This document shows positions 10,690-44,266 of a stretch of DNA of 64,000 nucleotides, piece after piece. Position numbers and translations under genes: made by a program. Under the pieces are notes generated by a model. It saw only the letters and a list, made by a program, of their open reading frames with translations. It had not been told where the DNA came from and searched no databases. Numbering within the stretch: the first letter of the stretch is position 1; every line of letters starts with the position of its first letter. The DNA is from Akkermansiaceae bacterium (GTDB lineage: Bacteria > Verrucomicrobiota > Verrucomicrobiia > Verrucomicrobiales > Akkermansiaceae), in contig JABDRB010000003.1 in assembly GCA_013041925.1 (NCBI GenBank), positions 310,001 through 374,000 on the forward strand, in the 5' to 3' direction.

Positions 10690-11829
10690 TTACATCGCTT
10701 CACGCATCATCTGAGGTCCCATCATAAAGATCGGCATAAAGGTTCCGAGGAACACGGCAGCGATCAACATGACCGCGATGATCATCACCACAAAACTAAC
10801 TACTTGGCTAAAATCGTCCATGAGCTGCTCGGCGTCTTCCTCAAACATTTCAGAAAGCATTCCTAGTTGATTACCCAACGATGCCGATCGCTCACCAATG
10901 GCCAACATATGCACCACCTGCGGGTCAACCGAGGTGTATTTGGCGAATGCCGAAGACAAGGGCACACCCGACTTTTCATACATATCGGCCGCTTTATTGA
11001 TCTCCGCGTAAAACGGGGTTTTTTTCACGCTGTTTGCCGATACACGCAAGGATTTAGCCAGGTTAATACCATTCGAATAAAGCAGCTTAATCGTCGAAAG
11101 GACCGTCATCTGTCTGAGACTCATCACCATCATCTTCACGACTCGGAATTTCGCCATCGCCAGATTCATAATCATGTTTTGAACTGGATTGCACTTCCAA
11201 ACCGTGATCAGAATCGCAAGCAACCCCAGCACCACCATCGGCCAAACTTTCTGCACCACATGACTGATCTCAAACGATAACTTCACTAAGCCTTTGGCTT
11301 CCATACCCACCATCATATTTTCCACCTGAGGCACAATATTTACCTGTGAGGCAATGAAGGCACCGATCAGAATCGGGATCACGATACAGGGCATCATAAT
11401 CAACTTTCTCACTTTCTTACGAAAAAACATATCACTTTTGATGCGTTTGCCGAGTTCGGCAAAGGCGGTGTCGAGCTGACCGGCATCGCCACCCGCTTGG
11501 ACAAGACCGATCGTCATGTCGTCAAATTTTTTCGAATGCTTGAATGCCTCGTGAATAGGCACCCCCTTGTTGACATCCTCATGGATTTGAGTCAAGGCCG
11601 CCACAAGAATCTTGTTAGGGTGACCATGTGCATAGTATTTGAGCGCGTCGGCGGTGCTAATTTGGGCGCGCAACATCGATGCCAACGAACGAAACATCTG
11701 CACCAATTCCTTCTTCTTGAAGGGTTTCGACCTACTCGCAAACAGGCTTGATTCAGGTTTTGCCTTCTTAGGGGCAACCCTTGTGGACCTCGGAGTTGTC
11801 TTGCTTGCTGCGCTTTTTGTTTCACTCAT
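10690..11829 (-). CDS. PilC/GspF-type inner-membrane platform protein
   Basis: The 379-residue product belongs to the T2SS-F/PilC family, the polytopic inner-membrane protein that couples the assembly ATPase to pilin polymerisation. Residues 1-40 are a basic, Lys/Ala-rich tail. They are followed by KKKELVQMFRSLASMLRAQIS, the usual start of the first F domain, with AGGDAGQLDTAF matching the conserved GExxGxL-type motif. A first membrane helix follows the KVRKLIMMPCIVIPILIGAF segment. The second F domain contains GERSASLGNQL, and the protein ends in a hydrophobic helix. The gene starts 20 bp downstream of the E ATPase gene. Confidence 0.92.
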   Translation of the reverse strand: MSETKSAASKTTPRSTRVAPKKAKPESSLFASRSKPFKKKELVQMFRSLASMLRAQISTADALKYYAHGHPNKILVAALTQIHEDVNKGVPIHEAFKHSKKFDDMTIGLVQAGGDAGQLDTAFAELGKRIKSDMFFRKKVRKLIMMPCIVIPILIGAFIASQVNIVPQVENMMVGMEAKGLVKLSFEISHVVQKVWPMVVLGLLAILITVWKCNPVQNMIMNLAMAKFRVVKMMVMSLRQMTVLSTIKLLYSNGINLAKSLRVSANSVKKTPFYAEINKAADMYEKSGVPLSSAFAKYTSVDPQVVHMLAIGERSASLGNQLGMLSEMFEEDAEQLMDDFSQVVSFVVMIIAVMLIAAVFLGTFMPIFMMGPQMMREAM

Positions 11830-11849: not shown

Positions 11850-13541
11850 TTATTCATCGGTACTCATGTCAATCATCTTCCCGATCGCGGCGAGGTCGGT
11901 CTTCCCCTCCATGAGCAGCTTGATGCCGTTATTACGGAGATTGGGAAGAACCCCCTCATCCTGAATCTTAAGTTCCAACTCATACGGGGTGATTTCTCCT
12001 TTCGAGAGCATATCGGAAACTTTCGGGGTAATGGGGATAATCTCAAGGATAGCTGTCCGACCAGCATAACCTGACCCGTGACACTCTTGGCAACCGTCGG
12101 GCAAATGATTGTAAACCGTCCGTTTCGCCCAGGAATCATCGAGCCCATAGATCATCCGTTCTTTCTCCCCAATGCCTTTCTGCTCAAGCTTGCAGTAAGG
12201 GCAAAGCACCTTTATCAAACGCTGAGCGCATGCCGCCTTGAGCGTTTGGGCAATTTTCCATCGTTCAATGCCAAGCTGTTCAAAACGCTCGATAATCTGT
12301 GATGCCCGTGGGGTGTGAATCGTTGTGAGCACCTTATGACCGGTCACGGCAGCCTCAATACAAAGCTCGGCGGACTCAATATCACGCACCTCACCCATGA
12401 GGATAATATCGGGGTCACTCCGCATGAAACTCGCAATCATGGGCTTAAACTCGCTCGGGTGCTTCAGGTCACAGTGAGTCACTCCAGGGATTTCATCCTC
12501 CACGGGGTTTTCCAAGGTCAGGATATTCACATCTGGCGTATTCATTTCACGCAGAATCGCATTCAGGGTGGTGGATTTCCCCGACCCCGTCGGTCCACTC
12601 ATCACGATAATCCCCGCTGGAATTTTCATCACCTTGTCCAAGGCCAACAAAGTAGAGTCATCAAAGGCCAACGACCCCTTTCCCAATGTCACATCGAGGT
12701 GCCCTTTATCAAGCAAACGCATCGTGATGTGATATCCTCGATAGGTTCGGTGGCGCTCGTAACGAATATCAATCGGTCTTCGATAGTAGGATATAGTAAA
12801 TCGGCCTGAGATTCCTGGTGTCGTGTTCCGGATCTCAGCGGGCAACTTCATCAGGTTCAACAGATAGGCATCCAATCGGTCCTTCAGCTTCATCGGGAGC
12901 TCTGTTTTTTTACCGATATCTCCATCCACTCGGAAGGCATAATAGAAGCTTTCCTTCTCCACCTTGAAGTGCACGTCGGAGGCCCGCTGCTTGACAGCCG
13001 TCGCCATAATCGTCGCGATCAGCTGCGCCATGGGCTCTTCGTAATCCTTGGTGACATCAAAGTCCTTGATCTTGTCGCCTGTGTCCTCGACTTCGATCGC
13101 CTCCAGCTCATCCCGGCTGGGTCCGGCATTACTAGAAACGGCTTCGATCGACCGACTAATCTCTGAGGTCAGCGTGACAATCTTGACGATTTCAAAATCA
13201 GGGAACCGCATCGCAATATATTCATCGGCGGCGGGGTTCCAAGGGTTGGAAATGGCGACGATGATTCTATTTTCATCGGTGCAAAGTGGCGAAAACCCAC
13301 CACGGGTCAACACAGAGGGATCACATTTCTCAAGCAATGAACTTTCACAAAACTCGGCCACCCTAGGAAAAAAGGGCATATTATTGATCTTGGCGATCGC
13401 CGCCATAAACACCGACTTGGTGATCTTCGCTTCCAACTGCCCTGGATCAATGTCTTCCAACGCAGGATCATACTCCACCAATGTCTTCATGATGCGCCGA
13501 CTGATCAGCGCATTGAAGCGTATACCGTCATATTCAATCAT
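11850..13541 (-). CDS. PilB/GspE-type assembly ATPase
   Basis: A 563-residue hexameric secretion ATPase that powers (pseudo)pilus assembly. Residues 1-135 form an MshEN/GspE-N-like domain. Further motifs are: Asp box around 331-350, Walker A GPTGSGKST at 316-324, Walker B LMGEVRD at 381-387, and a His box (TGHKVLTTIHT) near 400-410. A zinc-binding tetracysteine is present: C447/C450 (CPYC) and C484/C487 (CQEC). That metal motif separates GspE/PilB from PilT. Its start overlaps the preceding gene by 4 bp (ATGA), indicating translational coupling to the separate N-domain protein. Confidence 0.95.
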   Translation of the reverse strand: MIEYDGIRFNALISRRIMKTLVEYDPALEDIDPGQLEAKITKSVFMAAIAKINNMPFFPRVAEFCESSLLEKCDPSVLTRGGFSPLCTDENRIIVAISNPWNPAADEYIAMRFPDFEIVKIVTLTSEISRSIEAVSSNAGPSRDELEAIEVEDTGDKIKDFDVTKDYEEPMAQLIATIMATAVKQRASDVHFKVEKESFYYAFRVDGDIGKKTELPMKLKDRLDAYLLNLMKLPAEIRNTTPGISGRFTISYYRRPIDIRYERHRTYRGYHITMRLLDKGHLDVTLGKGSLAFDDSTLLALDKVMKIPAGIIVMSGPTGSGKSTTLNAILREMNTPDVNILTLENPVEDEIPGVTHCDLKHPSEFKPMIASFMRSDPDIILMGEVRDIESAELCIEAAVTGHKVLTTIHTPRASQIIERFEQLGIERWKIAQTLKAACAQRLIKVLCPYCKLEQKGIGEKERMIYGLDDSWAKRTVYNHLPDGCQECHGSGYAGRTAILEIIPITPKVSDMLSKGEITPYELELKIQDEGVLPNLRNNGIKLLMEGKTDLAAIGKMIDMSTDE

Positions 13542-14164
13542 TCGTTCACCCCCTGTCTAAAATGTTTTTCGCACATCTTCGCCCAACTGACAAAATCAAG
13601 ACGCACGATGCCCACGATGGGTTTCAATCCTGTTTGTTGCTCGACGATCTCGGTGATGGATAAGGAAAGAGCCTCAGCGAAGTAAGGATTAATGGAGGCG
13701 ATACAAATCACGTCGAGATCTTCCGCGTAAGCAATGGGCACCAACATCAACTTACACAGCAACGCGATATCGGGATGTTTCTCGTAAAGCCCTGACGGTG
13801 GAATCAACCGACCCGCAAAAGGAATCCGAATAGGAGCAAAAGGAAGAGAGCGACCCATCTTTGCGGAGATCATCTCTACGCTGGCGTCGAGCATATCCCC
13901 ACCTCCAGCACGTAGGCGGGCGAGACAATTGACCGGATCAGAGCCTTTACCTTCCCCCCATTTGCTTCTCACTGACGCGGCCACTTGATTACAGTCATCA
14001 ACAGAAGCAAGGTTGTGCTGCTGTAGCATCGCAAGAGTCCGGATCAGCGCGTGCTCCAAAGCAACGGGCACCTTCTCTGACGAGCGGGCCACGTTGCTTT
14101 TGGGCTGAGAATCTTCTGCTTGAATAAGCGATCCCTCATTATCGTATTGGGGCTCGGTGTTCAC
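13538..14164 (-). CDS. Stand-alone GspE/PilB N-domain-like protein
   Basis: This 208-residue protein has no ATPase motifs. Its second half (PSGLYEKHPDIALLCKLMLVPIAYAE, then DLDVICIASINP and AEALSLSITEIVEQQTG) follows the same pattern as the MshEN-like N domain of the ATPase directly downstream, where NRIIVAISNPWNP and MRFPDFEIVKIVTLT occupy the equivalent places. The first ~65 residues are polar and probably flexible. It overlaps the ATPase gene by 4 bp. I infer a paralogous regulatory subunit that docks the ATPase to the PilM/GspL-like protein or binds a nucleotide such as c-di-GMP, as some MshEN domains do; this is not demonstrated by the sequence. Confidence 0.7.
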   Translation of the reverse strand: MNTEPQYDNEGSLIQAEDSQPKSNVARSSEKVPVALEHALIRTLAMLQQHNLASVDDCNQVAASVRSKWGEGKGSDPVNCLARLRAGGGDMLDASVEMISAKMGRSLPFAPIRIPFAGRLIPPSGLYEKHPDIALLCKLMLVPIAYAEDLDVICIASINPYFAEALSLSITEIVEQQTGLKPIVGIVRLDFVSWAKMCEKHFRQGVNE

Positions 14165-14197: not shown

Positions 14198-15841
14198 TCA
14201 ACGTGCAGGGTAATAGGGTGCCTGCTTCGGCTTCATACCTCGGATCGTGCGTCGCATATTCGGTTCATGCGCAGGGCCTGGGTTAGAGTCTTCCACCCAA
14301 TCATACTTGGTTGGTAGAGCCATCCCATTGCGAAGGCGTCTCGTTGTGTTGTTATTTGTCCTAACACAACTTGGATCATACGATGTGGGAGTCACCACAA
14401 ACACAAGGCTGGAATTTTCCTTGCGGGTTTCTTTTGATTTGAAAAAGAAGTTGAGAACAGGAATATCGCCAAGTAGCGGAACCTTGTTTTTCCCTTTGCT
14501 CGCAATCTCACCATAAAACCCCCCGATCATGAGCGAATGACCATTGGGAATGCGAGCGATCGACTGAATCGTGGCCTCACTGACACGCGGATAAACATTA
14601 CCTGACGGACCCATGATATTTTCGACAATTTGGGCATTTCTGGGTCGCATATCCATCCTGATCGTCCCATCAGGCAAAAGACTGGGGCGCATCGTCATGG
14701 TAACGCCGATCTCCCTCGTTTTTTCAGGATCGGTTGAGTCCCCCTTATCAATCGTATACCTCACCTCATCCGTTTGGATCGTAGGGCCCGTTCCGGTGGT
14801 GGTGGTCGAGGTAATGATAGGAACACGATCGATAAGTGAGATACTTGCACTTTCGTTATCCTCAGTAATCACCACAGGATTTGATTTTTGGGTAACTAGG
14901 TTACCTGAGTTTAAGGCCCTCAATACCCCTCTTAATTCGACTGGGGTTAAAACAATATTGCTGTTGTCAAATGATGGGCCCGTTGCCGTCCCTCCGGTCG
15001 TACCCGATGTCGACGCGACAGGTTCAGGCAACCCAAAAAGAGCATTCAAACTTGCCGCAGTGTCAATAGATAGACCTGCCGCTCCGAGTGAGGAAGCCCA
15101 ATCCACGCCTGAGTATTTACCCACAGTGCTGTTAATACGTAGGATTTTCACTTCGATCACGATCTGCCCCTTTGGTTTGTCAATTTTCTTGAGAAGTTTC
15201 TCAACACTTTCGATATGCGTCATCGAGTCAATAATGATGATGGTATTCGTCTTCGGTTCAAAATTGACGATTCCCCGTCCCTGGGTGAGCAAGGGTTGAA
15301 TCAGTGCCTTAATTTGTTCGATGTCGGTGGGACGTAGGTATTTCAATGAATATGTCCACTCTTTACTCGGAAGCTGCTCGAGCTGTTCACTCATCATGGC
15401 GTATACCGTATTGCCTTTAACATAGATGCGTAGGCCATACTGGAAAGCCAGCTCCTCCATCTGCTTCAGTGGGTCGGTATCTCCATTGAGGTGACCGGTG
15501 ATCTTGTAATCATCCGCATTCAACCTGTTATTGTGAAAATACTGCTTATCAGCACGCTTGGCGAGCAGCTGGAAGATATCATTGATATTGGCGTCTTTGA
15601 TGATAAAGCCACCATCATCACCCTCGACGGGTTGACCGTCAACCACAACCGCGGGATCGGAGCCTTCGGCTCCAGCTTTCGCTGCCGCTGGTTGATCAGG
15701 ATCAGCCACAGCTTCGACGCTGGCCTCCACGGGATTGACTGCATCCGAGGGGACGTCCTCACTGACCTGAGCATACGTGAGTGTGGTGGCCAGCATGGAG
15801 ATGACCCATGTGCTGCACATGATGGTGGTGGATTTTTTCAT
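14198..15841 (-). CDS. Secretin, outer-membrane channel of a pilus/T2S-like machine
   Basis: A 547-residue secretin (GspD/PilQ family) with a signal peptide (MKKSTTIMCSTWVISMLATTLTYA at most). The order is: an STN-type N domain around 80-145 (FIIKDANINDIFQLLAKRA), a secretin N1/NolW-like domain (YSLKYLRPTDIEQIKALIQPLL and NTIIIIDS), and the C-terminal secretin domain with VTMTMRPSLLPDG, ARIPNGHSLMIGGF and VPLLGDIPVLNFFF. It resembles the Akkermansia secretin Amuc_1098 in type and position. The ATG at 15841 gives a proper signal peptide; the longer reading overlaps the upstream gene. It ends in a Pro/Arg tail, after the membrane domain. Confidence 0.92.
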   Translation of the reverse strand: MKKSTTIMCSTWVISMLATTLTYAQVSEDVPSDAVNPVEASVEAVADPDQPAAAKAGAEGSDPAVVVDGQPVEGDDGGFIIKDANINDIFQLLAKRADKQYFHNNRLNADDYKITGHLNGDTDPLKQMEELAFQYGLRIYVKGNTVYAMMSEQLEQLPSKEWTYSLKYLRPTDIEQIKALIQPLLTQGRGIVNFEPKTNTIIIIDSMTHIESVEKLLKKIDKPKGQIVIEVKILRINSTVGKYSGVDWASSLGAAGLSIDTAASLNALFGLPEPVASTSGTTGGTATGPSFDNSNIVLTPVELRGVLRALNSGNLVTQKSNPVVITEDNESASISLIDRVPIITSTTTTGTGPTIQTDEVRYTIDKGDSTDPEKTREIGVTMTMRPSLLPDGTIRMDMRPRNAQIVENIMGPSGNVYPRVSEATIQSIARIPNGHSLMIGGFYGEIASKGKNKVPLLGDIPVLNFFFKSKETRKENSSLVFVVTPTSYDPSCVRTNNNTTRRLRNGMALPTKYDWVEDSNPGPAHEPNMRRTIRGMKPKQAPYYPAR

Positions 15842-15863
15842 GGTTTGTAGGTATATGTTAGTG

Positions 15864-16472
15864 TTATTCAAGGGGCTGAACATCGTTATGATCGAGGTTC
15901 AATGGGGTTGTGTCTTTGCGATTGAGGGGAACGACTCCTGGGACAGATTGCAAACCAGCATTGCGCGTCATACCTTGGGGTAAGGTATTGAGGTTTCTTC
16001 TCACGAGCTTCTTCGTATCCACATTTTTAAAGAGAATGGAGCCTGATTGCACCGATACAATTTCGATATTAAACTGCCGTTGAGCCCTGATAATGGGGAA
16101 ACGATCCCCCGCTTTAAACTCCCGGGATCCTGTGATAAATTTCTTTTCGGAAGGAAGCACAGCATTCACCTTGATGGCCGCAATCGCCTCTAAAAAGGCA
16201 CCTGGCTTGCGCTTTTTCACTTGCTTCCGTTCAATAGGCTTCGCATCCGTGTCCTGAGCCATACCAAAGGGGCCAATGTCTCGCTGGGCGATCGGAAGCT
16301 GAGTCCGCATTTTTGTAATCCAGGCCGTTTTTTGTTCACCAATCAATCCCCTTGAGCTTTGCTCAGCAAATTCGTTAGGGGTCGATACCCCTTCTTCAGG
16401 TTTGTCGACAGCCCAAGCCACGGGCGCGGCCATGGCAAAAACAGTCAATATGGTGATTATTTGAGTGTCCAT
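15864..16472 (-). CDS. Exported protein of the pilus cluster (PilP/GspC-like position)
   Basis: A 202-residue protein with a signal peptide (MDTQIITILTVFAMAAPVAWA). From about residue 95 it has a short beta-rich segment (KFITGSREFKAGDRFPIIRAQRQFNIEIVSVQSGSILFK) that resembles the single HR/PilP-type domain that contacts a secretin: an alternating pattern with a G-D-x-F turn. The rest is low in recognisable structure. It overlaps the upstream gene by 16 bp and sits 22 bp before the secretin, the slot of PilP in pil operons and of Amuc_1099 in Akkermansia. Function as a periplasmic link between inner-membrane complex and secretin is inferred from order and fold pattern. Confidence 0.7.
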   Translation of the reverse strand: MDTQIITILTVFAMAAPVAWAVDKPEEGVSTPNEFAEQSSRGLIGEQKTAWITKMRTQLPIAQRDIGPFGMAQDTDAKPIERKQVKKRKPGAFLEAIAAIKVNAVLPSEKKFITGSREFKAGDRFPIIRAQRQFNIEIVSVQSGSILFKNVDTKKLVRRNLNTLPQGMTRNAGLQSVPGVVPLNRKDTTPLNLDHNDVQPLE

Positions 16473-16996
16473 ACGGTGAAGGTCGTGTCGAAGTGAATGG
16501 CATTGCCGCTGTCATCTGGGGTCATTTTGATGAAATCCAGCTGCATATTAGGCAAGATCGTCTCCATTTCCATCAAGGCAAGCTGCATCGCGCGGAAGGT
16601 GGCTGTAAACTTCATATTCACCTGACTGGCAGGCTGTTGAACGCCGAGGCCGAGGCCCTGGCTGTAATTCGTCCAGTTATGGGAGGATTTCGTCAACTCC
16701 TTCCCCTTGAAGTTTTTTTCTGCCGTCTTCCAGTGTTCGAGAAACGTCCCGCGTGTTTCCGTCCTCATCATGGTATCCCACTCCTTTAATTTTTCCGCAT
16801 TTTGCGCCACCTTAAGTTGAAGATCCATGGTCTGCCGTATTTCTCGGTGTCCGAGATCATAGACCTTTTGTTTCTTTTTATACTTGAGACCAACAGACGA
16901 TGTCATTGAGTAACATACACCTGCAATGATAGCCATGAGAAGGAATGGAATCACTATGCCAAAAACCGCCACGGATTGTTTGTAATACTCGTTCAT
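16457..16996 (-). CDS. PilO/Amuc_1100-like anchored periplasmic protein
   Basis: A 179-residue protein with a short cytoplasmic N-terminus and one membrane helix (VAVFGIVIPFLLMAIIAGVCYSM, about 9-31). A helical segment rich in K, E and Q follows (40-100), then a C-terminal alpha/beta part with VNMKFTATFRAMQLALMEMETILP. This is the architecture of PilO/GspM. In the Akkermansia locus the same position holds Amuc_1100, which is longer (~317 residues). Sequence similarity is too weak for me to claim orthology. It overlaps both neighbours (4 bp with the PilM-like gene, 16 bp with the next), so translation of all three is likely coupled. Confidence 0.72.
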   Translation of the reverse strand: MNEYYKQSVAVFGIVIPFLLMAIIAGVCYSMTSSVGLKYKKKQKVYDLGHREIRQTMDLQLKVAQNAEKLKEWDTMMRTETRGTFLEHWKTAEKNFKGKELTKSSHNWTNYSQGLGLGVQQPASQVNMKFTATFRAMQLALMEMETILPNMQLDFIKMTPDDSGNAIHFDTTFTVWTLK

Positions 16997-18777
16997 TTTA
17001 TTTGGCTTGAGGTCTGAGCTCCGGCGATGGCCATGTCGTCCTGACCGCTAAAATTTTGTGAAATCGTCAACGTAAAGACCCTTCGATACATGTCACTCTC
17101 TCGCGTCGGTGAAATCGTATTGTAGGTGGGGTTCGCGCGTTGCCTAAGGCTGACAGTAATATCACGTTGTTTGACATCGGGCAAGTAGGCGGCATTCCCT
17201 GTGGTGATGGCGACATCTCGGAAAAGGGTCTTGACCCCATCGCGTGTGCTAAGGCTCTCCAGATGTTCAAGTCCTTTTTCATTGCTGTAGCCGTTAATAA
17301 TCCATGACTTGGTGAAGCCGATGGTCTTTGCCTCCATCTCACGTTTCTGTTCGACGGTATGCCGGACATCCTTAAGAATCACGGAACCATCGGGTGGGGT
17401 CAGTTTGGCAACGAGTTCCATGCTTACCCAGGCTTTAGAACGATCCTTGAGTAAATTGTTCCAATTATCGTAACGCATTAAATCAGACCTCAACTTGATC
17501 ACTGAGGTTTGATTTTTTTTCGCCACGTAACTCCAAGCCTCACTGCTGGTTTGATAAATGACCTTATAGCCCGAATAGAGAGCAAATACTACCAGCAGAG
17601 CCACCGCAATGAGTTTCGCTTGCTTGCTGATTTTCAGCAACTTCATATCATCCTTCCCAGGAAACAAGTCGAGCTCTGCCTGATCGGGTGCCAAAAAGTC
17701 CTGCAAATGCCATGCCTCCTCCTTCAAGGCGGTGAATGTCGCATTTTCGACCAAGGGGTAGGTGTCCCCATCAAAATCTTCGGTAGCCACCATGATCTCG
17801 ATAGGCAAATCCAGAGGCAACGATCTTTTTTTGAGAAGTTCCTCGGCATTCACCACCGCGACATCGGATTCCGGCATGCCTCCCTGAAGGCTACCGACTA
17901 GGCCTTCCACATCATGACCGACCATCGATACGACATGGATTTCAGGATTTTCCAATTCAAAGGCGGTCGCCGTCGCCATCACGGCGGGCCCCAGATTAGA
18001 CGGTGCACTCGCGCCGTTGGGGTGCGGCATAAAGCGCAACATCATCAGGTTGCAGTGGCTATTCAAAAAGGCGAGCAAGGTAAATTGTTCGTAGCTGAAG
18101 ACAGCAATCGTGCCACTCTCCTTGGCTGTGGCGAATAAGGGCAAAGAGGCGAGAGCGCAGAGGGGAGCGCTGATGGCACAAGTTTGAATCGGCAAATTGA
18201 TCTCATTGCCGACCTCTCTGAAGACGCGCAGGGTGTCACTCCGTCTGCGCGAAACGGCAACGGCCGTGGCAAATTCATCACCCGCTGCGGCTCCAGAATA
18301 AGGAAAGAGCCGCCAAGAGTGAGTTTCAACCGACACAGTTTTATCGTCAAGGACTTCACGTGGGTCGTCCACCATCATCGCACGCAGGTTATCCATTTCG
18401 ATCGGATTCTGGTGTTCCGGCCCGAGACCGGCGAGGGAGAGCTCATCGGCCAAATAAAGAATAACACCCAGTGATTTGGCATGGGCGGCCGCATCCAACT
18501 CAAGCGCTTGATGAATAAATTTTTCGAGTTCCTCGCGTTGTTCAAGCTGTCGCGAACTAAGGCTTTGAATTTTTTCACAGGCGTTCTGTGACTTCACATA
18601 AAGGTAACATTCTGCGGCACCGCTATCCTTCAAGTAGCAATGGATCTGGACATCCAAGTCCAAGGCATCCTGATACCAAGCAGGGTTCTTCATCCGACTG
18701 GTGGTTTTGGCCAACTTGACCGTGCGGGAATACTGCTGGAAAATATTAAGTTCTGAGGGATGGATCGCTTCGCTCAT
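16993..18777 (-). CDS. PilM-PilN / GspL-like inner-membrane protein
   Basis: A 594-residue protein. Residues 1-380 are cytoplasmic and look like a divergent actin-like PilM/GspL domain, with repeated hydrophobic strands such as GTIAVFSYEQFTLLAF and EIHVVSMVGHDVEGL. A membrane helix lies at 388-405. A periplasmic PilN/GspL-like tail of about 190 residues follows (VSMELVAKLTPPDGSVILKDV is the usual PilN strand pattern). It therefore combines PilM and PilN in one chain, as GspL does, and corresponds by position to Amuc_1101. Canonical nucleotide-binding motifs of FtsA/PilM are not obvious. It is the first gene after the pilin terminator, so a promoter should lie between 18778 and 18921. Confidence 0.78.
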   Translation of the reverse strand: MSEAIHPSELNIFQQYSRTVKLAKTTSRMKNPAWYQDALDLDVQIHCYLKDSGAAECYLYVKSQNACEKIQSLSSRQLEQREELEKFIHQALELDAAAHAKSLGVILYLADELSLAGLGPEHQNPIEMDNLRAMMVDDPREVLDDKTVSVETHSWRLFPYSGAAAGDEFATAVAVSRRRSDTLRVFREVGNEINLPIQTCAISAPLCALASLPLFATAKESGTIAVFSYEQFTLLAFLNSHCNLMMLRFMPHPNGASAPSNLGPAVMATATAFELENPEIHVVSMVGHDVEGLVGSLQGGMPESDVAVVNAEELLKKRSLPLDLPIEIMVATEDFDGDTYPLVENATFTALKEEAWHLQDFLAPDQAELDLFPGKDDMKLLKISKQAKLIAVALLVVFALYSGYKVIYQTSSEAWSYVAKKNQTSVIKLRSDLMRYDNWNNLLKDRSKAWVSMELVAKLTPPDGSVILKDVRHTVEQKREMEAKTIGFTKSWIINGYSNEKGLEHLESLSTRDGVKTLFRDVAITTGNAAYLPDVKQRDITVSLRQRANPTYNTISPTRESDMYRRVFTLTISQNFSGQDDMAIAGAQTSSQIK

Positions 18778-18921
18778 CGTTTCTGTTCAGTTCACCACTG
18801 AGGGTCTGTCGGGATAGGTTATCGTATAAAAACACATTCGTCACCACTTCCAAACAAGTAACGAATGAATATCTATTTTGTCCTACTTCGACAACTCTTT
18901 ATTTCATGTTTATTAAACAAA

Positions 18922-18952
18922 CTGTTGCCGATTCACAAGGAATCGGCAACAG
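18922..18952 (-). terminator. Rho-independent-type hairpin after the pilin gene
   Basis: A perfect 13-bp inverted repeat (CTGTTGCCGATTC at 18922-18934 and its complement at 18940-18952) encloses a 5-nt loop. Read on the minus strand it lies about 40 bp after the prepilin stop and is followed by the T-rich TTTGTTTAATAAA. It probably ends the pilin transcript and separates it from the secretin operon. Confidence 0.75.
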
Positions 18953-18965
18953 CAAATGATTTCAG

Positions 18966-18992: not shown

Positions 18993-19403
18993 TTACCAGC
19001 CTACAATAGAGTCTGGCACATGGTCAGTATAAGTTAAGATATCTGGGCACGGAGCAGCAAGGGAGCTAACAGCTGGATAAGTCGTTCCCGTCAGGTCATA
19101 TGCAGTGTTATCCCTTGGGCATGTTGGTGCGGCTGGAAAGAAGCCACCAGTAACTAAAAGAACACTGAGTGTTGAGCCAACTGCATCGCCAGGGCTCTTA
19201 TTTGCCATATTCTGTGAAGTCCTCGTATGTGTCTGAATATTACGGATATTCATGATACATTGCGAACGCTTGACGCCGTTTTGGTATGCCTGGACTCCGA
19301 TAAAGAGCACGGAGATCAGAGATAGGAGAACGAGAATCACCACGGTGATTTCGATCAGTGTCATACCTGGCTTCAACTTTGTTGTTTTTGTTGTTAGTTT
19401 CAT
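18993..19403 (-). CDS. Type IV prepilin / major pseudopilin
   Basis: A 136-residue prepilin. The basic leader ends at KPG and is followed by MTLIEITVVILVLLSLISV, the class III signal: cleavage after Gly, N-methylated Met at +1 and the conserved Glu at +5. The rest is a short globular domain with four Cys (QCIMN, TCPRD and PCPDI), the late pair giving a plausible disulfide loop. Such small Verrucomicrobial pilins resemble G-type major pseudopilins. I used the ATG at 19403; an upstream reading adds His/Lys-rich residues before the leader. A prepilin peptidase, needed to process it, is not in the window. Confidence 0.92.
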   Translation of the reverse strand: MKLTTKTTKLKPGMTLIEITVVILVLLSLISVLFIGVQAYQNGVKRSQCIMNIRNIQTHTRTSQNMANKSPGDAVGSTLSVLLVTGGFFPAAPTCPRDNTAYDLTGTTYPAVSSLAAPCPDILTYTDHVPDSIVGW

Positions 19404-19469: not shown

Positions 19470-20762
19470 TCAAACATACTCGGTATCTTCTCTGTGCATC
19501 CTCGCGTTCTCAAAAGTTTCTCGGGAGATTTTATCCTCCTCATAAAGGCTTTGTAATTTGTCATCCCAGGCGATGTTGCCGGCCCGCTTGATCACGTCTT
19601 CCAGCGCACGTGCTCCTTTGTCATAACCGCCAATGGCGCTGGAAACGGCATCCTCGTTATTCTGGAGGAACTCATAGGTCAACACGCGCCCCTTAATGCC
19701 GCTGAGCAAACCTTGGGAGTGGATGAAAATCAGGATTTCACTCAAGCGACTCAATACGGCTGGGTGGTTCTCACGGGGATACATCTCGAGGATACGTCCC
19801 ATCGTTTTGATCGCACCGGTGGTGTGCAGGGTGGAGAGCACGAGGTGACCCGTCTGCGCGGCTTCCATGCAGGTCTCCATCGCCTCCCGGTCACGAATCT
19901 CACCCAAGAGAATCACGTGGGGTGCTTTACGAAGCACATCCTTCAACCCCTGCCTGTAGGAGGCAAGGTCACGACCGACCTCCTGCTGGGTCACGATGCT
20001 CGGTGCCGTACATTTGTGACCTGGCACGTCCGGATCATCCATATCAGATGGGTATTGATATTCGACTGGATCTTCGACCGTGACAATGTGTTTAGGGTGA
20101 TTGCGTCGAAGCCAATCAATGATCGCTGCGAGCGTGGTTGATTTACCGGAACCCGTCGGGCCTGTTACCAGACAAAGTCCAGCACGGCGTTGCACGCCAA
20201 GGCGAAGCATTTCTGAGGTGTCGGGGTCAATACCGAGCACATCCAGATCGGGAATGGAATCATTCAAAATCCGGCAGGTCATGCCGAGACCACTGGCACT
20301 GAGGTGCATCTGGATACGGAGCCGTCCTGATGTTTTCCCTGTGGCGGCGACAAAGATCCCGTTGCAGGAAAAGTCATCGACGTGCGTTTCTTGGAAACGT
20401 TCAATCGCTTCTTCGATTTTACGTTCGCTCCTGTCCTCACTACTTTCATCCTCACCAAATCCATGGCTTGCGGATTCGCGGTTCCTGAGAAGCTCACGGT
20501 AAATCTCATAAACATCATTACTCGACAGCACGCCAAGTTGTTCAAGACACTCCATACCGTGATTCGTCTCAATGTAAACGGGTCGCTCTGACCGTACCTG
20601 GACATCGGAGACCCCCATGGAATCGCACACCTGAAAAATAACGCCCAATAACTGCTCGCCCGCCATCCCCGACTCGAATGTCGGCACCGGTGGCGCCTGC
20701 GGGATCGCAGGCGGCAGCGCAGGTGGGGTCACCTGAGGAGCTGCTTCTGTAGTGTTTGACAT
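19470..20762 (-). CDS. PilT-family ATPase with an insertion
   Basis: A 430-residue secretion ATPase lacking the tetracysteine of GspE, so of the PilT type. A Pro-rich N-terminal tail (1-30) precedes a PAS-like N domain with an acidic insertion at about 95-130 (EDESSEDRSERKIEE). Walker A GPTGSGKST is at 201-209, Walker B LLGEIRD at 285-291, and the His box TGHLVLSTLHT near 304-314. Between the Asp-box (VTVEDPVEY) and Walker B there is an extra ~18-residue loop (DMDDPDVPGHK) absent from usual PilT. It lies 66 bp upstream of the pilin gene on the same strand, so it probably retracts or tunes this pilus. Confidence 0.88.
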   Translation of the reverse strand: MSNTTEAAPQVTPPALPPAIPQAPPVPTFESGMAGEQLLGVIFQVCDSMGVSDVQVRSERPVYIETNHGMECLEQLGVLSSNDVYEIYRELLRNRESASHGFGEDESSEDRSERKIEEAIERFQETHVDDFSCNGIFVAATGKTSGRLRIQMHLSASGLGMTCRILNDSIPDLDVLGIDPDTSEMLRLGVQRRAGLCLVTGPTGSGKSTTLAAIIDWLRRNHPKHIVTVEDPVEYQYPSDMDDPDVPGHKCTAPSIVTQQEVGRDLASYRQGLKDVLRKAPHVILLGEIRDREAMETCMEAAQTGHLVLSTLHTTGAIKTMGRILEMYPRENHPAVLSRLSEILIFIHSQGLLSGIKGRVLTYEFLQNNEDAVSSAIGGYDKGARALEDVIKRAGNIAWDDKLQSLYEEDKISRETFENARMHREDTEYV

Positions 20763-20814: not shown

Positions 20815-21771
20815 TTAGTTGACCGACATTTTTTCTGTCATGACGCGTTTCATATAGATGCCTTGGCCTTCACGGAGTTTGGTGAGGGAATTGGCACGTG
20901 CCTCCATGTCATCCAGTCGTATCTCTGAGACAATGCGATTATTTTTCAAGGCCTGATCGCGCAACTGCACATACTGCTGCAAACAAACATCAAACTGCGC
21001 AAGACTCTCTTTCGCCTCGGGGATCGTGTATTGCTCATAGTAACGGCCAATATGGGAGACAATATCATACGCTGCGCTCGCAGCCGTCAGCCATGATTCG
21101 GGATCGACATCATCCTCTTGGCAGAAGTCGAGCGTGCGCATAGCCAGTTTGACAGCACGGTCATCATCGCCTTCAGACTTCCCCAAGCTCGTAGTAGAGA
21201 TAAAGAGATGGTAGTTCCCGTAATTGATGTAATTGGACGGATCCAATTCATAAGCAAACCTCAGCTTGTCTTCGACGACGCCTTGTAAATACTTCTGGTG
21301 CGCGGGTGATAGAGGCTGACCATCGGTCTTCCTACGCGAGTAAGCCGCCATTTTCTTAATCATCCGCTTAGCACGCAGGTGCAGGGGTCCCGTTTCGCCT
21401 TCCTTCAAATTCTCTTGTTTTCCACCATGGGCATCACATGGGCAGTCTTCGCCGTGTGCACTCTTAGCCGCGGCGTGATCATGGCCCGAGTGATCGTCAC
21501 AACCATCGGCACAACTCGCGTCATGCTCATGTGCGTCTTGATTCAAAATACTCGTATCCTCATGAGAGGCACCTTCATGCCAGTAAAAATCGATAGGACC
21601 TTGCATCGCGAGAGCGAGAATCTTCCCGTAGGGGCTCCCCTTGACACAGGCGACATTCGGTTTGTAATCCAGCTGACCCCTTGCGTTAAACTGCGTCGCC
21701 ATCCCCCCCCAAAGCCCTGCACCCAAAACGAGTGTGCAGCCAATGGCTATTGAGTAAGTGGTTACGTTCAT
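20815..21771 (-). CDS. Membrane-anchored His/Asp-rich protein (PilG-like position)
   Basis: A 318-residue protein with an N-terminal membrane helix (about 6-25) and no family I recognise. Between about 75 and 120 it has a cluster of His, Asp and Cys (HEHDASCADGCDDHSGHDH, then HGEDCPCDAHGG) that looks like a metal-binding segment. The remainder is helical, with TPR-like spacing (residues 140-318). It starts 5 bp after the ABC permease gene and ends 52 bp before the PilT-like gene. In Myxococcus the ABC proteins PilH and PilI act with the anchored PilG in pilus assembly; by position this protein could be the third partner, but I see no direct similarity. Confidence 0.75.
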   Translation of the reverse strand: MNVTTYSIAIGCTLVLGAGLWGGMATQFNARGQLDYKPNVACVKGSPYGKILALAMQGPIDFYWHEGASHEDTSILNQDAHEHDASCADGCDDHSGHDHAAAKSAHGEDCPCDAHGGKQENLKEGETGPLHLRAKRMIKKMAAYSRRKTDGQPLSPAHQKYLQGVVEDKLRFAYELDPSNYINYGNYHLFISTTSLGKSEGDDDRAVKLAMRTLDFCQEDDVDPESWLTAASAAYDIVSHIGRYYEQYTIPEAKESLAQFDVCLQQYVQLRDQALKNNRIVSEIRLDDMEARANSLTKLREGQGIYMKRVMTEKMSVN

Positions 21772-21776
21772 GATGA

Positions 21777-22544
21777 TTAAGCGGCGGGTTTGGCTTGATA
21801 ACACAGGGTGGACAACATCGAGAGAACCAGCTTAATCCCTATGAAATAAGCCACCAACTGAGAGAACTCTGATCCAAGCATACTGCCGTGCTTAAACACG
21901 AGCCGAGGCGTAAGATCAGCTAAATGATAATGCGGAGAGACCACATAGATCCAGTCCAAAATTGCATTATTTTGCACCTCGGTCATCATGGCAAGATAAC
22001 CGACTCCATACATACCGTAGACACTGAGACTTAATGGAATCAGATATCCGATGGTGCCACCAAACCGACTTCCTATCGAAGCCGCCACCATCACGAGAGG
22101 CATGATCACGAGGAGAAATAATGCCGCATATTGAAGATTGGTCGCCACCCACATCTTAGCCTGCGCACTGTCGCTTGGCATCGCACCGATCAAGCAAACG
22201 GCTACAGTAATAACCACCAAGGGCAGTAAAAAAGTGAGGCACGCCAACCAAATCTGCATCATTTGATGGACTCGGGATACCCCAGCACTCAGAAAATAAG
22301 CTCCCATGCCTGACCTTGCCGTATCGTCACCAAACCGGGCCGCCTGGAAAAACACCCAAGCAATCGCCAGCACCCACAGACAAATCCACGCTGCCTGTGC
22401 GCGAGCAGGCGCCAGCATCGCTGGGTTAGTCTTGTAGGGCACAAGATAAGGGAGAATGATTGGCAACAGCAGCACACACAAAAACGCAATAATCCAAACC
22501 TTACGTTGGAAAATGGTTGCGAGTGTTAATCGGTAAAGTTGCAT
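21777..22544 (-). CDS. ABC-2 type transporter permease
   Basis: A 255-residue integral membrane protein with about six hydrophobic segments (for example IAFLCVLLLPIILPYLV, AAWICLWVLAIAWVFFQAA, LLPLVVITVAVCLIG, AALFLLVIMPLVMVAAS). The pattern fits ABC-2 permeases. It lies 2 bp from the ATPase gene and 5 bp from the His-rich protein gene. Together they form a transporter whose substrate is unknown; its linkage to pilus genes recalls Myxococcus PilI. Confidence 0.82.
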   Translation of the reverse strand: MQLYRLTLATIFQRKVWIIAFLCVLLLPIILPYLVPYKTNPAMLAPARAQAAWICLWVLAIAWVFFQAARFGDDTARSGMGAYFLSAGVSRVHQMMQIWLACLTFLLPLVVITVAVCLIGAMPSDSAQAKMWVATNLQYAALFLLVIMPLVMVAASIGSRFGGTIGYLIPLSLSVYGMYGVGYLAMMTEVQNNAILDWIYVVSPHYHLADLTPRLVFKHGSMLGSEFSQLVAYFIGIKLVLSMLSTLCYQAKPAA

Positions 22545-22546
22545 GA

Positions 22547-23209
22547 TTAGTTAAGTTGCGTTTTGAGATCCCCCCATTGCTTGGGCGCATCCTCACCAAA
22601 CAAATGAACAATTTTCCCATCGCTGATCAGCACGGAGCTTTCCATCTCCATGCTATCAAAATCTGGATGACAGCTCACCAAGCGAAGCACTCCGTCTTGG
22701 CGTTTGGCCCATAGATCTTGAAAAAGTTCGCGTGCAAAGGCATCAAGTCCCGTAAAAGGCTCGTCGAGCAGCAAGATATCCGATCGGCCATCCTGCACAG
22801 AAAACTCTGCGATCAACAAAGCCACCTTACGTTTATTGCCTGTGGAGAGTTTTCCGTAAGGCTTATCGACATCGAGCTCAAGTTGGCCAGCCAACTCCAG
22901 CGCCTGCTTGCAATCATCCTTCTTCAGTAAACTTTTAAAAATAACACGAGGGGGAAGCTCACGATCAAACACCAAGTCTTCGCTGAGTAACTGACACCTT
23001 CCTCGACATTGGTATGAACCACCCAGCGGTTTCAACACACCTGCCAAGGTCCTCAGTAACGTCGTCTTCCCACGTCCGTTCCGAGCCAGCAAATAATGCG
23101 TGCCACTGCAAAGCTCAATATCCCGGTCAGCTTCGGCCAAGCTCTCTTGGTAGCCAATGCTGAGACCTCCGGATATACCGACACTCAAGTTTTCATCACT
23201 TAATTTCAT
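22547..23209 (-). CDS. ABC transporter ATP-binding protein
   Basis: A 220-residue ABC ATPase, short as in CcmA-type or ABC-2 exporters. Walker A is ARNGRGKTTLLRT, in which the first Gly of GxxxxGK[ST] is Ala. The signature is LSTGNKRKVAL in place of LSGGQ. Walker B is LLLDEPFTGLD and the switch His is in SCHPDFD. These variants should still bind ATP, although the Ala deserves a check. It is the promoter-proximal gene of the run through permease, His-rich protein, PilT-like ATPase and pilin, all on the minus strand. The AT-rich stretch 23210-23280 just upstream is the likely promoter. Confidence 0.88.
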   Translation of the reverse strand: MKLSDENLSVGISGGLSIGYQESLAEADRDIELCSGTHYLLARNGRGKTTLLRTLAGVLKPLGGSYQCRGRCQLLSEDLVFDRELPPRVIFKSLLKKDDCKQALELAGQLELDVDKPYGKLSTGNKRKVALLIAEFSVQDGRSDILLLDEPFTGLDAFARELFQDLWAKRQDGVLRLVSCHPDFDSMEMESSVLISDGKIVHLFGEDAPKQWGDLKTQLN

Positions 23210-40657: not shown

Positions 40658-43060
40658 TCATGGCGACTTGTGTTGTGCCTTCATGATGTTTTGCCAACGC
40701 AGGCGAAAATCGAGATTCACCTCGGCAAGCTTGCTGGCAGCGCGCTCCGCCCTATCCTCTTTTCCGATAAGCCAGAGGTAACAAACTGCCTGCTCGATCC
40801 TCCGCTGCCCCTCTTGGTTACTGAGCCTTAGTTGATAGGCTTTCTGGAAAAGCACGAACACGCTATCGGGCTGGATGGCCGACCAAGGAAGAAACCGCTG
40901 ATCCTCTCTGGGGTTCTTGACGTGTATCCCTCCTTTTTGAGCACGGACAACCCGCTGGTAAACCTGACCATCCATCGCACGAATTGGCATCGCCAGACCC
41001 TCACGGGGAATAACCACTTTTTCTAGTCCCTCAATCAACGCGCTCGCCGTTTCAGCTAGATAAACCCACATATGCCTCCCCTCCTTTTGACCGCCACTCA
41101 CCTCAACCGATTTCATCGCGGCGGCCGCCTCGGCATATTTCGATACAGCCACAAGTTCTCGGAACTTCCTCAGCGCCACTTCATAATCCAGTGCTTCATC
41201 CACCTTTTCATCCACCTTATCCTGAGGCACTTGGAAGCCCTTCATTCTGCGGTGCAATCGGAGCTGCCAGACCCTCACCCGAAACCTCGAACGCCCCTGC
41301 GTTTCAAGGGTTCTTAACAATTTTTTATAGTCGACCAAGCGTTGTTTGGCCTCCACGAGATCAACGGGGTCGGCCATCTCGGCAATGGATTCCATTTTTT
41401 TAAAATCGGACAAGTAGCGCTGAGCAAGGTCAGGGTAGACCCTCCATGGACTATTATGGGCAAGGTGATTCTTTTGGATCTTTTCAAACAAGGGAACGGC
41501 CGCATCCCAAGCTCCCATTTCCCAGTTTTTCAATGCCACAGCCATCAGATAAACGGCGGCCATGGTGTTCTTTTCGCCACCAACATCACGGATGACTTTC
41601 GGTGCTTGGAGCTGCTCGCCAAGTCGACCCAGTATTCCTTCGGCAGGCACCTCGTGGGATGCCATATGCTGCCGCAACGAGGAGATCGCCTCGCTGGCAT
41701 CACCCGAGTTACCACCTAACCAAGCGGCAATCACAGCCTCCACACCCGCCCAGGATGACGTAGGCTCTTTGACGTGATCGTCATGCATCAAGCGAGTCAA
41801 CACCTCCCTCGCCTCACTGTATTGCTTTTCCTTGATCATCTCGTGCGCTCTGCGGAATTGCTTGGCAATCATTACGGCTACCTCAGGATCATAATCAGCT
41901 CCGCCACTCAGCACGATCGCAGCTTGATCGCCCTCGCCCCCCTTACCCGAATAAGCATGAGCAACAATATCATCACCTTGTTGATTGATGAACAAAAGGC
42001 CGATGATCGAACCTAATAAAACAAGAGTAAGCACGGCAATAATTAGCAACCCCAACCTGACGTGCTTCGATTGAGCGCGTCGATGCGCACGTTCACGGCT
42101 ACGAATCGGCTCCGATGCCCCAGCTCCCTCGGTGGCCTTAAAGGCAGCGCGCAATGCCTCCCCCATCACGGCATAGGATGAAAAACGATCCTCTGGCCGT
42201 AACGCCATTGCCTTATCGACGAGGTAACACGTTTCTGGCTTCAGCCAAGGGGCTACCTCTGCGAGAGGTGGAATATCCTCCTTCGCCTTAGCCACAGCAC
42301 GGGTCGATTTAATCGTATCCGGAAAGGGAGGGTAGCCGGAAAGTGCGTGGTAGAGCGTTGCCCCAAGAGCGTAAATATCGCTCCGAAAATCCTCCTCACC
42401 TCCTACCAGTGCCTCAGGGGGAACATAATAGGGTGTAGCCCAGATTTCCGTTGCCCTCGCCTTCCCCCCTTGAGTAACCAGAGCCAAGCCGAAATCAACA
42501 ATTTTGACATGCCCCTGTGCATCAAAGAGGATGTTCCCTGGTTTCACATCACGGTGGATCAAGCCTGCATGCTTTGCAGCCTGCAGGCCTGCGATGATTT
42601 CCGCGGCTAAAGGAAGCATCACATCCTCACCGATTGCATTTTCGCGAGAGATCCTTTGTTCCAGGTTTTCTCCGGACACCATTTCCATCGCGATGTAGAA
42701 ATGGCCATACGCCTTCCCCACGGTAAACACCCGGACGACATGCGGATGACTGATGGCTGCGGTAATTTTGGCTTCATGCTCAAACTGCTGCATACGCTTC
42801 TCATCCTGCGAGTAGTCCTCGTTGAGAATTTTGATCGCCACTTCACGGTCTAGCGTCACATCCGACGCCTTAAAAACCATACTCATCCCCCCAGCAGCAT
42901 GCCTCCCCAGCAAGAGATATTGGCCGAGTTCGCACTTCACCCGTGTATGACTACCACAACCAGGACAAACAACATTCGTGTATGGCCCCATCGGAGAGAT
43001 ATCCATCTTGCAGCCACATGAGCTGCAATGGGCAATGTGTTTTTCCGGCGTGTCATCCAT
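40658..43060 (-). CDS. Transmembrane Ser/Thr protein kinase with N-terminal zinc ribbon
   Basis: An 800-residue Hanks-type kinase. Two CxxC pairs (C12/C15 and C32/C35) form an N-terminal zinc ribbon. The kinase domain (~45-310) has a Gly-rich loop (LLLGRHAAGGMSMVF), K77 in VAIK, catalytic D171 in HRDVKPGN and DFG at 189-191. A basic juxtamembrane stretch precedes a membrane helix (~336-358). The outside part (~360-800) is helical with possible TPR-like repeats and no PASTA domains. It diverges from two PilT-family genes with 135 bp between the starts. What signal it senses is not visible. Confidence 0.93.
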   Translation of the reverse strand: MDDTPEKHIAHCSSCGCKMDISPMGPYTNVVCPGCGSHTRVKCELGQYLLLGRHAAGGMSMVFKASDVTLDREVAIKILNEDYSQDEKRMQQFEHEAKITAAISHPHVVRVFTVGKAYGHFYIAMEMVSGENLEQRISRENAIGEDVMLPLAAEIIAGLQAAKHAGLIHRDVKPGNILFDAQGHVKIVDFGLALVTQGGKARATEIWATPYYVPPEALVGGEEDFRSDIYALGATLYHALSGYPPFPDTIKSTRAVAKAKEDIPPLAEVAPWLKPETCYLVDKAMALRPEDRFSSYAVMGEALRAAFKATEGAGASEPIRSRERAHRRAQSKHVRLGLLIIAVLTLVLLGSIIGLLFINQQGDDIVAHAYSGKGGEGDQAAIVLSGGADYDPEVAVMIAKQFRRAHEMIKEKQYSEAREVLTRLMHDDHVKEPTSSWAGVEAVIAAWLGGNSGDASEAISSLRQHMASHEVPAEGILGRLGEQLQAPKVIRDVGGEKNTMAAVYLMAVALKNWEMGAWDAAVPLFEKIQKNHLAHNSPWRVYPDLAQRYLSDFKKMESIAEMADPVDLVEAKQRLVDYKKLLRTLETQGRSRFRVRVWQLRLHRRMKGFQVPQDKVDEKVDEALDYEVALRKFRELVAVSKYAEAAAAMKSVEVSGGQKEGRHMWVYLAETASALIEGLEKVVIPREGLAMPIRAMDGQVYQRVVRAQKGGIHVKNPREDQRFLPWSAIQPDSVFVLFQKAYQLRLSNQEGQRRIEQAVCYLWLIGKEDRAERAASKLAEVNLDFRLRWQNIMKAQHKSP

Positions 43061-43195
43061 AAATCTTGCAAAGAATACTCATTGACGGAAGGTATTGGAA
43101 ATACAAAATCCAATGAATCTCCAAGGAAAAACCCTCCCCTGATCCTTCTAGCTTGCCCCGAACCTCAACTCTCGCTTTATTGGGTTAAGGAACTT

Positions 43196-44248
43196 ATGCA
43201 TGAGACCATTGACAAGCTAGCCGATGAAGCGTTTCAAGCTGGCGCCACGGACCTTTTTCTTTGTGAAGATCAGGTTCCTCGCATCCGGGTGCACAATGAT
43301 ATCCAAGTTCCCGGGGGCTCCGCGCTCAGCCGTGAATGCATGGCCTCGTTCTGGAGTGCCTGCCATGCCGACCCTGAAACCACGTTGGAAAAAGACACCA
43401 GCCATGTCATTTCTGGCGGGCGCCGATTAAGGGTCAACCTCTACAAATCACTCGGTCTTCTCTCTGCCGTTCTACGCCCCATCAAGGACGTCATCCCCAG
43501 CATGACCGAGTTGGGCTTACCCGAGGCACTGCTGACCAACTGGGCCTCACGCCAATCAGGGCTGATTCTCATCACAGGCCCAACCGGATCAGGGAAATCA
43601 ACCACCCTCGCCTCCGCCCTGCAATGGGTCAACGAAAATCAGGCCCGCCACATTGTGACCATCGAGGACCCTATTGAATACCTTTTCTGGAACAAACTGA
43701 GCTACTTTTCCCAGCGTGAGCTGCATGCCGATACAGCATCGTTCGCATCCGCCCTCAGAAGCTCCCTCAGGCAAAGCCCTGACATCATCCTGCTCGGCGA
43801 AATACGGGACGAAGAAACGGCAAAAATATCTCTGCAGGCAGCCGAAACAGGACACCTCGTACTCGCTACCCTGCATAGCTCCAGCGTAGCCGATAGCTTG
43901 GAACGCTTGGCCAATTTGTTTGACCACGACAAACGGGAAAGCTTGCTCAAACTCTTGGCTCAGCACCTCGTGGGCATCATGTCCCAGCAACTCATCCCCC
44001 GAAAAGACGGCGGCCTGCTGCTCGCGGTTGAACACCTTCAAAACGAAGCCGTCACCCGCGCATGGATCCGAGAAAACAACCTACCCGAGATCTCCGATCA
44101 CATCAACCGAGGCGACAACCCCGCGAACTGCTCCTTTGTCCGTTTTCTGGTCGCCGCCACCCAGCAGGGGTATCTTGACAAAAACATCGCCCGCCGATCC
44201 GCGCCCAACGCCCAAGACTTCGACCGCCTGCTTCGCGGTATCACCTAA
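43196..44248 (+). CDS. PilT-family ATPase (PilU-like paralogue)
   Basis: A 350-residue PilT-like ATPase without tetracysteine. The N domain has GATDLFLCEDQVPRIRV. Walker A is GPTGSGKST, the Asp box is VTIEDPIEYLF, Walker B is LLGEIRDEE and the His box is TGHLVLATLHSS. The ATG at 43196 is supported by AAGGA six bases upstream, one of the few clear ribosome-binding sites in the window; the longer reading adds 56 residues. It forms an operon with a second PilT gene (18 bp) and a membrane protein gene. The pairing recalls PilT/PilU retraction ATPases. Confidence 0.9.
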   Translation: MHETIDKLADEAFQAGATDLFLCEDQVPRIRVHNDIQVPGGSALSRECMASFWSACHADPETTLEKDTSHVISGGRRLRVNLYKSLGLLSAVLRPIKDVIPSMTELGLPEALLTNWASRQSGLILITGPTGSGKSTTLASALQWVNENQARHIVTIEDPIEYLFWNKLSYFSQRELHADTASFASALRSSLRQSPDIILLGEIRDEETAKISLQAAETGHLVLATLHSSSVADSLERLANLFDHDKRESLLKLLAQHLVGIMSQQLIPRKDGGLLLAVEHLQNEAVTRAWIRENNLPEISDHINRGDNPANCSFVRFLVAATQQGYLDKNIARRSAPNAQDFDRLLRGIT

Positions 44249-44266
44249 ACTCCAGCGCACCTGTCC

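Follow-up and report, generated by a model that had tools for sequence, protein, structure and literature searches.

A gene trio for an ABC transporter, probably an accessory of the neighbouring type IV pilus and divergently related to Myxococcus PilG/H/I, in Verrucomicrobiota

We analysed a window of 64,000 nucleotides from the genome of an Akkermansiaceae bacterium (contig JABDRB010000003.1, assembly GCA_013041925.1). Three adjacent minus-strand genes, encoding an ABC ATPase, an ABC-2-type permease and a membrane-anchored protein, lead into the genes of a PilT-like ATPase and a prepilin (Table 1). The open reading frames are as the initial annotation had claimed, and so are the gaps of 2 bp between the ATPase and permease genes and of 5 bp between the permease and anchored genes; 52 bp separate the anchored gene from the PilT-like gene. 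The anchored gene has an alternative start, a GTG at 21804, which would make it overlap the permease gene. On the 5' side of the trio, a divergent gene that by inspection encodes a P-type ATPase lies beyond a 360-bp AT-rich gap. At the other end, the prepilin gene is followed by a strong hairpin with a T-rich tail. Thus, ABC-permease-anchored-pilT-pilin is probably one transcription unit that ends at the hairpin. The nearest published parallel is in M. xanthus, where pilA, pilG, pilH and pilI form a single operon (PMC3546991).

Table 1. Genes and features of the trio and pilus locus (positions in the window).
Feature	Position	Strand	Remarks
ABC ATPase	22547-23209	-	220 aa; Pfam ABC_tran, E 1.4e-10
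ABC-2-type permease	21777-22544	-	255 aa; kin to intermediate Verrucomicrobiota permeases and, probably, via them to PilI
Membrane-anchored protein	20815-21771	-	318 aa from the ATG; probable remote PilG relative
PilT-like ATPase	19470-20762	-	First pilus gene after the trio; T2SSE, E 2.1e-41
Prepilin	18993-19403	-	Cleavage/methylation motif KPGMTLIEITVV; weak N_methyl match, E 0.025
Terminator-like hairpin	18921-18953	-	14 pairs, then T-rich; z -7.5; directly 3' of the prepilin gene
PilM/GspL-like protein	16993-18777	-	No Pfam match; marker for this pilus type
PilO-like membrane protein	16457-16996	-	Named from size, N-terminal TM segment and position
PilP-like exported protein	15864-16472	-	Named from position and inspection
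Secretin (PilQ/GspD family)	14198-15883	-	Pfam, E 1e-32
Conserved 208-aa operon protein	13538-14164	-	Kept in the operon
PilB-type assembly ATPase	11850-13541	-	E 2.6e-78
PilC/GspF platform protein	10690-11829	-	E 2.7e-35

A prepilin, members of the PilB and PilC families, a secretin and a PilT-like ATPase lie within this one locus, which identifies it as a type IV pilus locus. The ABC ATPase, the PilT-like ATPase, the secretin, PilB and PilC are recognised by Pfam and NCBIfam. The PilM-, PilO- and PilP-like proteins have no match in either collection and were named by size, hydrophobic segments or topology, and gene order only. By eye, the 208-aa protein looks like a stand-alone PilB N-terminal domain (MshEN-like); it has no Pfam match. 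The PilT-like ATPase scores E 9.5e-73 against pilT_fam yet stays under the family cut-off, and the AIRNLIRE-type motif of retraction ATPases is absent from it and from the orthologues checked. From its sequence, it may be something other than a classical retraction motor. The same protein also resembles TraJ/DotB.

We aligned the trio proteins with their orthologues. The ATPase keeps its Walker A (ARNGRGKTT), signature (LSTGN), Walker B (LLDEPFTGLD) and H-loop (CHPD) motifs in 37 orthologues. The window permease has no Pfam match, five of 37 permease orthologues match the Pfam family ABC2_membrane_3, and a permease profile found nothing in the PDB. The anchored protein has a single N-terminal hydrophobic segment, 13 His and 8 Cys. 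After the TM segment come the motif NVACVKGSPYGKILALAMQGPIDFYWHEG, a variable His/Cys-rich linker and a helical LDPSNY domain. The TM segment, an NxxxxKGSPYGxxxAxAMQGPIDxYWHxG region and a helical LDPxNY region are common to 37 orthologues, in which N39, S46 and G49 (motif region) and D177 and T213 (helical region) are invariant. Searched against the PDB, the anchored protein profile gave weak matches to designed helical repeats only, and an AlphaFold model made from the one sequence is unreliable (pLDDT 39.6). A search of viral contigs returned no match.

Is the trio consistently found with the pilus? We mapped the window genes onto 40 loci of the family; placement in the order Verrucomicrobiales, among relatives of Akkermansia, follows kinship labels and the Amuc_1098-family secretins of the window's genome. 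The trio stays together in all 40, save for gene ends lost to contig ends or gaps, and it adjoins pilT in 32, mostly upstream and on the same strand. Conservation of this linkage in related genomes had been named beforehand as the check on which the idea could fail, and the linkage was found. In three loci (L068-L070) the trio and pilT are transcribed divergently. The anchored gene and pilT share 4 bp in several orthologous loci, which points to translational coupling. One locus ends at a contig edge, and the remaining seven hold a solitary trio among unrelated genes; these seven come from six genomes of one genus and from a second copy in genome G093. This second, unlinked copy (L064, C36) resembles the solitary type of another genus. 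In a second family of the order (L127-L130), the trio comes after pilC and pilT is convergent. The link between the trio and the pilus genes is thus beyond chance and recurs in dozens of related genomes.

The distribution of the genes gave the same picture. In profile searches of 97 family genomes, the permease and the anchored protein occurred in an identical set of 46. The PilM-like marker occurred in 42, all of them among the 46 trio carriers, and in none of the 97 without the trio. The four trio genomes in which it was not detected are fragmented drafts of at least 170 contigs. Six genera mix carriers and non-carriers; the co-occurrence counts are not fully corrected for phylogeny, and an exact test stratified by genus gives p 3.6e-7 for the absence of any marker-side exception. 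Genus g3, with complete single-contig genomes, has none of the anchored protein, the permease and the PilM-like marker. Across 387 genomes of the phylum, strong matches of all three fell in the same 18, and no window-type PilM-like match was found outside these 18 carriers. The mixed genera, together with the genus in which the trio is unlinked, argue for functional coupling of the trio and the pilus. The coupling itself is a genomic observation; the action and target of the trio, set out below, are inferred.

The initial annotation had proposed that the trio is equivalent to PilG/H/I of Myxococcus. Using the M. xanthus PilA sequence (PDB 8tj2) as a query, we fetched myxobacterial pil loci, which carry pilA-pilG-pilH-pilI-pilD (including M. 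xanthus AM003, L156). Like PilG-PilH-PilI (MXAN_5782-5780), the window trio consists of an ABC ATPase, an ABC-2 permease and a TM-anchored periplasmic helical protein, encoded by three adjacent genes alongside type IV pilus machinery, with the trio order kept in nearly all loci. The gene orders differ: pilA-G-H-I in Myxococcus versus ABC-permease-anchored-pilT-pilin here. The window ATPase is also shorter than PilH (220 versus 324 aa).

Direct profile comparison aligned the permease with PilI only weakly, if end to end (11%, E 0.0027). The corresponding hhalign comparison of the anchored protein with PilG gave 2.7%, which is not significant, and was dropped as evidence. Weak permease matches across the phylum revealed a second clade of ABC-permease-anchored trios, which is the larger one and is spread over dozens of genomes from many Verrucomicrobiota families; these intermediates bridge the distance. 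For the permease, the window profile matched the intermediates at E 4e-11 over 240 columns, and the intermediates matched PilI at E 4e-27. For the anchored protein, the corresponding values were E 3e-6 (window to intermediates) and E 1e-8 (intermediates to PilG), and the window profile matched a combined PilG and intermediate profile at E 3e-8. The alignment with PilG pairs the motifs IDFYWHEG/ADFYWIQA and LRFAYELDPSNY/DLATDLDLRF. No control (column-shuffled profiles, TPR family, TM, PilD, E. coli YadH, CcmB, CcmC) gave a comparable score. With a combined PilI profile, a generic ABC-2 permease reached 5e-7 versus 4e-13 for the window family, which makes the permease evidence good but short of overwhelming. 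The ATPase showed no specific affinity: E. coli YbhF, CcmA and YadG scored at or above PilH against its profile, and its similarity to PilH was rejected as generic.

Of the proposed equivalence, then, a pilus-dedicated ABC trio with probable remote PilI and PilG kinship through intermediates is supported; the one-to-one correspondence is not, given the weak direct comparisons, the missing PilH affinity and the other gene order. Because the ATPase lacks PilH affinity, we do not count the trio as a member of PilGHI but as a divergent relative with a probably similar mode of action. The anchored proteins also differ: PilG is extended at the C-terminus and lacks a His-rich segment, which the window protein possesses. 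AlphaFold predicts PilG as a TM-anchored, TPR-like protein (pLDDT 88.9), and the PDB matches of this model are ordinary TPRs. PilG proteins (in M. xanthus, L156:10706-11623) end in a sequence like LVxxGYLxxxPxDPxGGxF, which resembles the C-terminus of GspG-type pseudopilins and is absent from the window protein.

The intermediate trios share with the window trio the three-gene order, the permease and anchored-protein similarities given above and a His-rich segment. Their pilus neighbours are different, with no PilM-like match of the window type; in several genomes they adjoin ExeA-like, GspB, PilB, PilC and pilin genes. Among the matches listed, none of the genomes with a window-type trio has an intermediate match. 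The GldA-GldF-GldG system of Bacteroidota gliding offers a more distant likeness, a related ABC-2 type that serves a motility machine. PilH matches GldA (E 5e-53) and an intermediate permease matches GldF (E 1.4e-6), both below the cut-off. In contrast, the window permease has no GldF match, no GldG-type partner was found, and the machine is a type IV pilus.

The initial annotation had also called the third protein metal-binding. At least four His within 40 residues occur in 32 of 37 window-type orthologues and in 28 of 30 intermediates versus one of 26 PilG proteins; in two control families of the window clade that are not His-rich, 9 of 21 and 4 of 37 proteins reach the same count. Both Verrucomicrobiota clades have such His-rich segments, which are not a feature of PilG; they are not noise. 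Their place differs: they form an internal linker in the window clade and a C-terminal tail in the intermediate clade. Among the orthologues, the His/Cys/Asp-rich linker ranges from 10 to 74 residues and from 0 to 21 His, with 0 to 2 His in seven of 37, and it is missing in several. Because it varies in both length and His count, metal binding is not the conserved core. What survives of the claim is the recurrence of the His-rich segments in two clades; metal binding as the conserved function, or as the main reading, was set aside since several orthologues have no linker. The C-terminal tails of the intermediate loci (L131-L142, L196-L225) often read HxC...EEHDHD.

Together, these data suggest, with a probability of roughly 70%, that the trio forms an inner-membrane ABC complex that serves the neighbouring type IV pilus as a dedicated accessory and is divergently related to Myxococcus PilG/H/I. 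In such a complex, ATP hydrolysis would drive the permease, and the permease would move the anchored protein. The latter, a putative helical or TPR-like arm in the periplasm, might act on pilins or on the base formed by PilO, PilP and the secretin, and its action would lead to the delivery of pilins or the assembly of the machine. The trio would thus act as an assembly factor, the role of PilGHI in M. xanthus, and would not export a substrate unrelated to the pilus. The His-rich linker, either metal-binding or a flexible spacer, would be an adjustable extra outside the core activity. PilG, PilH and PilI have been described as essential for moving pilin across the inner membrane (PMC3724824).

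What else might the three genes do beside a pilus? They might simply sit there, as an unrelated ABC transporter inherited vertically with the neighbouring pilus locus. Linked genes often come and go as a block, and the trio and the pilus are adjacent in most genomes. Yet their co-occurrence holds in the genus in which they are unlinked, three different arrangements keep them together, and related trios in other parts of the phylum and in Myxococcus adjoin genes for pili or type II secretion. An accident of operon position is therefore very improbable and fits worst of the alternatives. Export is a common task of ABC-2 permeases, many of which move polysaccharides, lipids or drugs, and the trio could export a surface substance (polysaccharide, lipid or peptide) and be co-inherited with the pilus for a shared role in surface attachment. 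Deletions of pilGHI in M. xanthus abolish not only S-motility but also EPS, and they were complemented (PMC5544727), which would suit an exporter. However, a PilB mutation suppresses the EPS defect (PMC3724824), so the defect is indirect. Moreover, it is PilG that the anchored partner resembles, as opposed to a membrane-fusion or chain-length protein, and the neighbours of the solitary trios include no recognised gene for a glycosyltransferase or for export (by inspection only). We consider an exporter unlikely.

The His-rich segments raise another alternative. NosDFY-type copper ABC systems combine an ATPase, an ABC-2 permease and a periplasmic partner, the general layout of the window trio. 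A metal-handling system of this kind might load or remove metal, for instance for an envelope enzyme, and merely share the operon of the pilus. The His counts given above for the window-type linkers and the intermediate tails, against those of PilG, speak in its favour. But seven of the 37 orthologues have only 0 to 2 His in the linker, no NosD-like partner or nos genes were seen, and no metalloenzyme genes neighbour the solitary trios (by inspection). The trio associates with the pilus and its presence tracks the pilus, not metal genes. We consider a metal-handling role quite improbable. A bolder version of the pilus-accessory reading gives the metal a part in the pilus itself: in addition to PilB and PilT, Verrucomicrobiota type IV pili would possess a third engine powered by ATP, namely an ABC complex with a metal-binding segment in its periplasmic arm, placed differently between the clades, and pilus assembly would be gated by or dependent on periplasmic metal. 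We regard this version as decidedly unlikely.

Why Myxococcus pili need an ABC transporter is a question that has stood since 1998 (Wu et al., as cited in PMC3724824), and a 2018 survey found no experimental account (PMC6060248). We found no description of this module in Verrucomicrobiota in the open-access literature. With a related trio that strictly accompanies one pilus type in a second phylum, and with intermediates across many Verrucomicrobiota families, in several of which they lie beside pilus or type II secretion genes, what seemed peculiar to a single species becomes an accessory that recurs. The conserved residues of the trio proteins also offer targets for mutation.

The genome also carries parts of other pili. 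On its plus strand, the window contains a second PilT/PilU-like ATPase gene pair (43028-45325; own-genome matches at 43421-45274), which places parts of another type IV pilus close by. In addition, the window's own genome encodes two Amuc_1098-family pilus secretins over the curated cut-off (contig C29), which makes the pilus described here an additional system.
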